Origin: Cyanobacteria bacterium FACHB-471
Lineage (GTDB): Bacteria > Cyanobacteriota > Cyanobacteriia > Elainellales > Elainellaceae
DNA length: 64,000 nucleotides
Direction of reading: 5' to 3'
Assembly: GCA_014695345.1 (NCBI GenBank)
Contig: JACJOC010000044.1
Location: 62,001 to 126,000 of the forward strand
Within the stretch, counting starts at the first letter, position 1. Each line of letters opens with the position of its first letter. Of this stretch, positions 59,506 through 61,143 are shown piece by piece. A program made the translations under genes and the position numbers. The notes beneath the pieces are model-generated. The model made no database searches and was not told where the DNA came from. It saw nothing but the letters and a program-made list of their open reading frames with translations.

Positions 59506-59733
59506 TCAATTTTCAGATGCCTCAAGCCGTTGCCCCCACTTCTTCACAAGCTCTGCTGCCACTTCAACCATACGATCTTCAAAGGTGTTGAGATAAACTT
59601 CAAAGGATGCCAGTTGAGGATCAGCTTTTAACCGAGACAAAATCTCATTGGTTGGGTGGTCTATCGGGTAGTGAGCATTCAGTGCTTCCAGCAATGCAAC
59701 TTGAAAAGCTAATAAATCTTGATGAGTTTCCAT
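59506..59733 (-). CDS. Small partner protein downstream of the MNIO enzyme
   Basis: A 75-residue mostly helical acidic protein (METHQDLLAFQVALLEALNAHY...). The ATG at 59733 lies 11 bases past the MNIO stop with GGAGG between, so it is coupled to it. I recognise no family; the size is far below the partner proteins of bufferin and TglI-type systems. It may bind the precursor or the enzyme, or be unrelated. No Cys is present. Confidence 0.65.
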   Translation of the reverse strand: METHQDLLAFQVALLEALNAHYPIDHPTNEILSRLKADPQLASFEVYLNTFEDRMVEVAAELVKKWGQRLEASEN

Positions 59734-59743
59734 GAGCCCTCCA

Positions 59744-60625
59744 TTAGCCGCAGCGCTTAACAATTTGTTTAATTCGATTGAAGTCCTGGCGAAACTGCTC
59801 AATCTCTGGTTCACTGTTGAGGGTATGCCCCAGTCTCTCAAGAATCACAGCTTTGACATTAGTGCATTGCTTCAGAACGATCGCTAGCAGATCAAACACA
59901 GCTTCGGGAACCGCCCCATCATGTGTATCTCGTCGTACCAGATTTGAATCAGGAGTTGTTCGGCTCCAAGAACCACCGGAAAGATGCAATTCTCGCACGC
60001 GAGCGAGTGGGTAACTTGCCAGGAGTTCAGGAATTGATAGCTGAAAGTTGTGAATTTGGCAAAAAAGATTGTGCAAATCTAGAAGCAAGAACCCATCTAC
60101 AGGTTCCAGTAATTCAGTAATGAATTTTCCCTGATCTGCAACATCTTTTTGTCCAAACGCAAACGCTAAATTTTCAAGTCCAACGGGGACTTTGGCAGCA
60201 TCGGCTAATCGCTGGAGGCGATCGCGACCCAAGCTCACTGCATCCGGCGTATAGGGCATGGGCAGCGGTGCGCTTCGAGCAAAATTGCCTGCCGACATCC
60301 AGCCAAAATGCTCTGAAATGTGGACATAGCGATGCCGTGAGCATTCTGCCTGAAACTGCTTTAACCAGCGCATTTGGCGATCGCTCCACTCTGCCGACAG
60401 CAAGGAATAGGTCACACCATGACCCAACAGGCGATCGCGCTGGCTATAAAAATCAATCAGTTCACTTGCCCAGGAAGGAATTGTGTCTTCCCAACCTGCA
60501 TCAAAACTCCATTCCAACACTTCAACCTCTCCCTGCTCAAACAGAGGGCGAGTGGCTGTAAAGAAATGGGGGTCTGTCATCAAAGACAGACCCACCCAGG
60601 GCAAGTTTTGCTTCCGCTTAAACAT
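59744..60625 (-). CDS. DUF692/MNIO-family enzyme (RiPP-modifying type)
   Basis: A 293-residue TIM-barrel protein of the DUF692 family, multinuclear non-heme iron oxidative enzymes that modify Cys or nearby residues in peptides (MbnB, TglH, BufB). Family ligand motifs are in order: HGVTYS, ISEHFGW, GLENLAF, LLLDLHNLF, RELHLSGG, DTHDGAV and ILERLG. ATG 60625 is chosen; TTG 60649 adds eight residues. The preceding small Cys-tailed gene ends 34 bases earlier and the partner starts 11 bases later, so all three form one operon. It is probably cytoplasmic. Which Cys it acts on is inferred. Confidence 0.85.
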   Translation of the reverse strand: MFKRKQNLPWVGLSLMTDPHFFTATRPLFEQGEVEVLEWSFDAGWEDTIPSWASELIDFYSQRDRLLGHGVTYSLLSAEWSDRQMRWLKQFQAECSRHRYVHISEHFGWMSAGNFARSAPLPMPYTPDAVSLGRDRLQRLADAAKVPVGLENLAFAFGQKDVADQGKFITELLEPVDGFLLLDLHNLFCQIHNFQLSIPELLASYPLARVRELHLSGGSWSRTTPDSNLVRRDTHDGAVPEAVFDLLAIVLKQCTNVKAVILERLGHTLNSEPEIEQFRQDFNRIKQIVKRCG

Positions 60626-60658
60626 AAGTGATGTGCAGTGATCCTTCAATCCATTCGA

Positions 60659-60892
60659 CTAACCCATTCCGCAGGCAAGACAGGGCGAAGGAGGATTTGG
60701 TGTAGTGGACTGTTCTGTTTGAAGATCAGGTTGGGGATCTGATGGCAGCTCCGATAGAGTAACTGGCTGAAGTTGACTAGAATCAAACTGAACTTGAAAG
60801 TTTGGGCTTTGTTCTTTTGCCATGAGGGCAGCATTTAATCCAGCAATCAGGCTCAAAACAAAAGAAGCAGCGATCGTCAATAGCTTATTCAT
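60659..60892 (-). CDS. Candidate MNIO substrate: exported peptide with C-terminal PCLACGMG
   Basis: A 77-residue protein. Residues 1-25 form a Sec-type signal (MNKLLTIAASFVLSLIAGLN), then an acidic Gln/Pro/Thr-rich linker without Cys, ending in PSPCLACGMG. Only two Cys exist, at the very end, as expected for a small MNIO target. The ribosome site AAGGATCATTCC is good. Signal-bearing precursors are typical for bufferin-type MNIO systems; the short CxxCGMG tail is unlike the bufferin cores I know. Its direct position before the enzyme gene supports the pairing. Confidence 0.7.
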   Translation of the reverse strand: MNKLLTIAASFVLSLIAGLNAALMAKEQSPNFQVQFDSSQLQPVTLSELPSDPQPDLQTEQSTTPNPPSPCLACGMG

Positions 60893-60963: not shown

Positions 60964-61143
60964 CTAGTTCATTTGAACTTCTGTTGGCTTGTAGACTAAT
61001 CTAGCCTCATCCTTGCCCACTGGCGATCGCGTTTCACTTTTTGAACTCTTTGCCCTCAATGTTCCCGAAAGCAGGACAACAAAACCTGGATTGAGAGACG
61101 CTGTCCTCCTTGTCACCTCCTGCGCTGGTCTTTTCAGCATCAT
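60964..61143 (-). CDS. Small basic protein at the start of the MNIO operon
   Basis: A 59-residue basic protein from ATG 61143, with GGAG eight bases before it. It has a short hydrophobic patch (LNPGFVVLLSG) and otherwise charged residues. No Cys. It is 70 bases upstream of the candidate precursor on the same strand. I recognise no family, and it may be a non-coding stretch. Confidence 0.35.
   Translation of the reverse strand: MMLKRPAQEVTRRTASLNPGFVVLLSGTLRAKSSKSETRSPVGKDEARLVYKPTEVQMN

Follow-up and report, generated by a model that had tools for sequence, protein, structure and literature searches.

The three-gene operon described here belongs, as judged by sequence comparison, to the chryseobasin (ChrH) subfamily of MNIO systems in its cyanobacterial version. 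It lies in a 64,000-nt stretch (the window) of the Cyanobacteria bacterium FACHB-471 genome (GCA_014695345.1, contig JACJOC010000044.1, positions 62,001-126,000, forward strand), and we regard it with high confidence as a chryseobasin-type RiPP cluster with a tail-modifying enzyme made of two proteins. This two-part iron enzyme very probably closes the last seven residues of the precursor into a ring. The original prediction, made from the DNA letters, correctly read a tail-modifying MNIO system, and the observation is real and well conserved; the chemistry was already described between 2023 and 2025, making this a rare system and not a new one. Possibly new, if minor or unproven, are the Pro-free cores of the window and one Leptolyngbya, the set of Cyanobacteriia loci with short precursors, a second precursor of the double-glycine type, an upstream palindrome and a neighbourhood reminiscent of a copper switch.

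Gene arrangement and affinities of the enzyme

All three predicted reading frames were recovered, intact and tightly spaced on the minus strand (Table 1), with 33 nt between precursor and enzyme and 10 nt between enzyme and partner; an upstream TTG would lengthen the enzyme from 293 to 301 residues. The precursor, read earlier as a Sec-like protein with Cys only near its end, indeed begins with a short basic segment followed by a hydrophobic stretch and carries both of its Cys, and no other, in the terminal PCLACGMG. On the 3' side, in the same orientation, lies a LuxR-type response regulator and on the 5' side a divergent GAF-PAS histidine kinase, neither of which is kept beside the other ChrH-type loci examined. 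The linker region of the regulator ORF contains a perfect GGGGTGT tandem repeat of 5.1 copies (window:59226-59261).

Table 1. Coordinates of the operon and of related features
Feature	Position	Strand	Description
Precursor peptide gene	60659..60892	-	77 aa; Sec-type N-terminus, low-complexity mature part, C-terminal core PCLACGMG
Codons of core heptapeptide CLACGMG	60662..60682	-	Predicted site of macrocycle and hydantoin; precedents CPACGMG, CPPCGMG, CPGCGLG (PMC12636315)
ChrH-type MNIO (DUF692, PF05114)	59744..60625	-	293 aa from ATG; TIM barrel, without C-terminal helical domain
Partner protein	59506..59733	-	75 aa, four predicted helices; MelHc-like, probably the ChrH C-terminal helical domain as a protein of its own
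Degenerate palindrome copy	61030..61048	.	3 mismatches in 14 positions; alone not above chance in the window
BlaI/CopY-type repressor and M48/M56-type protease pair (PetR/PetP-like)	L056:10141-11452, L057:10527-11833, L054:4230-5515		Two Acaryochloris genomes and Leptolyngbya FACHB-8

The enzyme matches PF05114 (MbnB_TglH_ChrH) at 6.9e-35 and 121 bits (cut-off 25) and has all eight His, Asp and Glu positions conserved across 38 MNIOs (H69, H106, E151, D183, H214, D233, H235, E263), which bears out its earlier description as a DUF692 protein with a full set of ligand motifs. Its AlphaFold model is a TIM barrel (pLDDT 78.4, pTM 0.84) whose closest solved structures are TglH (8hi7) and MbnB (7fc0/7tcr). 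Among NCBIfam models it scores 371 bits with NF050165 MNIO_ChrH versus 98 with BufB, 84 with HvfB and 45 with ApyH. The 371 bits fall below the curated cut-off of 600, as do the 400 bits of a full-length Hymenobacter ChrH with a CPACGMG precursor, so that the group delimited by this cut-off is smaller than the ChrH subfamily of PMC12636315. The Hymenobacter protein, a fused form of 377 aa from a plasmid record with a lipoprotein-type precursor ending in NCPACGMG in front of it, shares 48% identity with the window enzyme. In a tree of the 38 MNIOs, the window, cyanobacterial and Hymenobacter (Bacteroidota) ChrH proteins form one clade with support 1.0, to which the other cyanobacterial MNIOs, among them those encoded next to Cys/Gly-rich proteins, do not belong. 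We observed MNIOs of the latter kind at L013, L017-L019, L021, L024 and L025, next to large proteins whose Ser/Cys/Gly-rich C-termini end in CGGCGG-type runs; as candidate relatives these (L013, L017-L025) were dismissed because they belong to a different clade.

ChrH-type enzymes are rare and patchy in cyanobacteria. In about 900 genomes searched in all, with overlap between the sets, such enzymes scoring above 300 bits were found in 2 of 386 drawn across the phylum; two of the 36 genomes of the window's own family have one, and 390 genomes of the class yield seven strong or fragmentary matches, the window included.

Conservation of the precursor tail and of the partner

A precursor lies directly 5' of the enzyme in all nine ChrH-type cyanobacterial loci in which this side can be read: the window, L002, L003, L005 (G035, Leptolyngbya FACHB-8), G231, G528 (L004), G544 (L006), G547 and G536. 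Each is a Sec-type protein of 74-119 aa ending in C[P/L/I][A/P/G]CGMG, and thus none of the nine enzymes (0/9) is without the adjacent tailed gene. The partner follows the MNIO directly wherever that side is readable (8/8). This recurrence in diverged cyanobacteria of enzyme, tailed precursor and partner in the same order, which had been proposed as a check, indicates that the arrangement is not due to chance.

Instead of varying freely between relatives, the tail is strongly constrained: over the nine loci the mean pairwise identity of the precursors is 86% in its seven residues versus 27% elsewhere, CGMG is invariant, and variation is confined to two residues inside the ring. As 99 of 181 synonymous codon pairs within it differ, it is held at the protein level. 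A CxxCGMG tail next to the enzyme occurs at 9/9 loci, but the Pro of the CPxCGxG pattern is replaced by Leu in the window (CLACGMG) and by Ile in Leptolyngbya FACHB-8 (CIACGMG). Both this homology and experiments published for tails of the same type give good support to the predicted role of CLACGMG as the modified core. The precursor as a whole matches NCBIfam NF050125 (ChrA_rel_RiPP) weakly, at 18.9 bits and below the cut-off of 40, and neither it nor the partner has a match in Pfam.

The partner, expected from the original prediction to be a coupled helical protein of 75 residues, is all-helical in its AlphaFold model (four helices, pLDDT 76), which has no match among solved structures. It is not detected on its own by NCBIfam, joining its sequence to the end of the enzyme does not carry the ChrH model match on through it, and a search of plasmids for it returned no match. 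We rejected its assignment to a known MNIO partner, there being no Pfam or NCBIfam match, an all-helical prediction and no matching structure. The fused Hymenobacter ChrH closes with residues to which the partner's C-terminus, FExxMVExAAxLVKKWGxR, can be aligned. When scored with a profile of seven partners, that fused domain comes sixth in a set of 5001 made up with its own shuffles, and first among 609 proteins. This similarity is weak but above chance, and by itself would be modest evidence; it agrees with the report (PMC12636315, a 2025 preprint) of a separate small protein, MelHc, that constitutes the ChrH C-terminal domain in Cyanobacteria and is bound by MelH, both being required. On these grounds the partner is taken as the probable counterpart of the ChrH C-terminal domain.

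The precursors also show some individual features. That of Aphanothece (L002:5566-5925) has an internal duplication in which a post-signal element (ADVSMHFGNQNLQ / ADLSVQFSKQNLQ ... LRRQAPS) is present twice, and a similar element comes after the signal in several others. In one Acaryochloris (L004:1763-2005, also L058) a second precursor of 80 aa, with the leader MTMSQLFSDVSEQQQEKLSGG, a core containing CMFCGSDG and a C-terminal CPACGMG, stands beside the Sec-type one. Its leader matches the CTB family bacteriocin model NF038167 weakly (17.5 bits, cut-off 32), and another ORF with an LVAGG leader lies at L058:1323-1556. The presence of this double-glycine-type leader in L004 suggests that one MNIO serves two export routes. 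The clusters of Cyanobacteriia are minimal, with three genes and cores that vary only inside the ring, and in three genomes they lie beside or near a BlaI/BlaR-type pair similar to a copper-sensing one of Synechocystis; this combination offers a simple and testable route to function.

Predicted chemistry and its alternatives

Enzymes of the ChrH subfamily are reported to use O2 and two to three irons to link the two former Cys in a macrocycle and to generate a hydantoin together with a thiohemiaminal (PMC12636315, PMC10214503). The tail itself is recognised, a C-terminal tail on GFP being sufficient for modification by DybH, and MelA1 loses 4 Da in a reaction that needs both MelH and MelHc (PMC12636315). 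ChrH additionally adds a methyl group (+10 Da, PMC10214503), which the products of MelH, DybH and others lack (-4 Da, PMC12636315). By homology to MelA1, MelH and MelHc, the window product is most likely the -4 Da form, a four-electron oxidation to a thiohemiaminal macrocycle and a hydantoin. The substrates that the main text of PMC12636315 describes include no Pro-free core, so that we infer by extension that the same reaction takes place on CLACGMG, and the window core provides a natural Pro-free substrate for testing ring formation.

On the model of these homologues, the precursor would be synthesised with a Sec signal of the signal peptidase I type, and in the cytoplasm the MNIO and its separate C-terminal-domain partner would bind the C-terminal heptapeptide with no recognition of a leader. 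A centre of two or three irons would use O2 to take four electrons from the second Cys of CLACGMG, the sulfur of the first Cys would be bonded to the beta-carbon of the former Cys to close the macrocycle, and the hydantoin would be made from the backbone after the second Cys. The free-thiol thiohemiaminal so formed would carry no S-methylation, and we infer that the modified peptide is then exported and its signal cleaved off.

Among the closest parallels is the mel system of Melainabacteria bacterium SJ512 (PMC12636315), which shares with the window an MNIO with a separate ChrH C-terminal domain, a secretion signal and a CPxCGxG-type tail; MelA1, however, is a 34-kDa protein, whereas the window precursor has 77 aa and ends in CLACGMG. 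The chr system of Chryseobacterium (ChrA/ChrH/ChrI, PMC10214503) likewise combines a ChrH-family MNIO with a C-terminal CxxCGMG core and an SPI signal peptide, but differs in its fused C-terminal domain, its S-methylated +10 Da product and its chrI, chrE and chrP genes, none of which, nor the fused domain, is present in the window operon. The dyb system of Dyadobacter (PMC12636315) also has a ChrH-family MNIO, its core being CPACGMG and its product -4 Da, but DybA is a lipoprotein with a third Cys, and DybH is fused and has no need of a partner.

The original prediction had suggested that the two-Cys layout and the very small partner depart from known systems and may define a separate subclass. 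On such a reading the MNIO would catalyse a reaction of its own on CLACGMG, marked by the change from Pro to Leu. The common Pro-free core of the window and Leptolyngbya FACHB-8, whose enzymes are sisters in the tree (with a low support of 0.65), would fit such a subclass, yet all ligand positions are unchanged, cyanobacterial enzymes that mostly go with CPACGMG or CPPCGMG tails share 59-66% identity with that of the window, and DybH tolerates changed ring residues (PMC12636315). Moreover, a two-Cys tail with a small partner is the ChrH layout known from Cyanobacteria in the same report. Model scores, tree placement and literature all place the locus in the ChrH subfamily, and we reject the separate subclass as improbable.

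A copper-chelating cluster of the bufferin or oxazolin type, with a thiooxazole or an oxazolone thioamide formed on Cys, would also account for an MNIO fold encoded with a secreted Cys-bearing precursor, and the BufB and HvfB models do match the enzyme weakly. Bufferin (BufA/BufB/BufC), oxazolin, methanobactin and TglHI share with the window the MNIO superfamily, Cys chemistry and the TIM barrel, but have other precursor motifs and partners and belong to another subfamily by model scores. The ChrH model is ahead of BufB by about 270 bits, the enzyme is placed with ChrH in the tree, the tail has neither EGKCG nor the multi-Cys bufferin layout, and the helical partner of 75 aa fits no known MNIO partner family; searches of both small proteins against Pfam and NCBIfam gave no match to a BufA/HvfA-type precursor or a BufC/HvfC-type partner. 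Such a cluster is accordingly very unlikely. Decay of the locus into a non-functional state, with the tail kept by descent alone, would agree with the rare and patchy distribution and with the related locus of G472, a mere fragment with a stop codon; it is hardly credible for the window, where the three frames are intact and the tail has been kept though the rest of the precursor diverged and the codons changed.

Upstream palindrome and a possible link to copper

Upstream of the chryseobasin-type precursor genes, seven of the nine loci have the palindrome GGTT[T/G]CA-N5-TG[A/C]AACC, with 0-2 mismatches and at a distance of 62-76 nt from the start codon. The window copy, 137 nt before the start and with 3 mismatches, is at chance level, and there is no copy upstream of the G231 precursor. 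A scan of ten genomes returned matches only slightly above those of a reversed control pattern, and the twelve matches examined have no common target. The starts of petJ and petE in these genomes have no copy within 3 mismatches, leaving a role as PetR operator unsupported.

Just upstream of the ChrH-type genes of two Acaryochloris (G544 and G547), on the same strand, are genes for a BlaI/CopY-type repressor and a protease of the M48/M56 type, and in Leptolyngbya FACHB-8 such a pair lies about 5 kb from them, beside arsR-GAPDH-MFS genes. The pair resembles, by analogy, Synechocystis PetR/PetP (slr0240/slr0241), whose repressor is degraded by the protease in response to copper (PMC7896320, PMC12292863). 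The repressor search gave one match each in G544, G547 and FACHB-8, and one in the window's genome, on another contig. A universal petRP linkage was rejected, the petR-like gene lying away from the cluster in the window's genome, G231, G635 and G528. Two of the three linked genomes being close relatives, this neighbourhood is suggestive only; as the pair is near the genes in three genomes, it makes copper a testable lead for function. Our leading guess, a tentative one, is that the peptide handles metal, namely copper, at the cell surface. The fuller proposal of a copper-responsive, metal-handling cell-surface RiPP tied to a PetR/PetP-type switch, with one enzyme serving precursors of different export routes, is doubtful; if the copper-responsive reading were true, it would give chryseobasin chemistry its first biological role.

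Beyond the petRP-like pair, L056:11648-13454 and L057:13935-16312 encode a membrane protein of the DsbD_2 plus ferric-reductase-like kind along with a small secreted protein, and L057 additionally a His-rich (HHHHKHHK) secreted protein; together these genes look like a metal-handling set.
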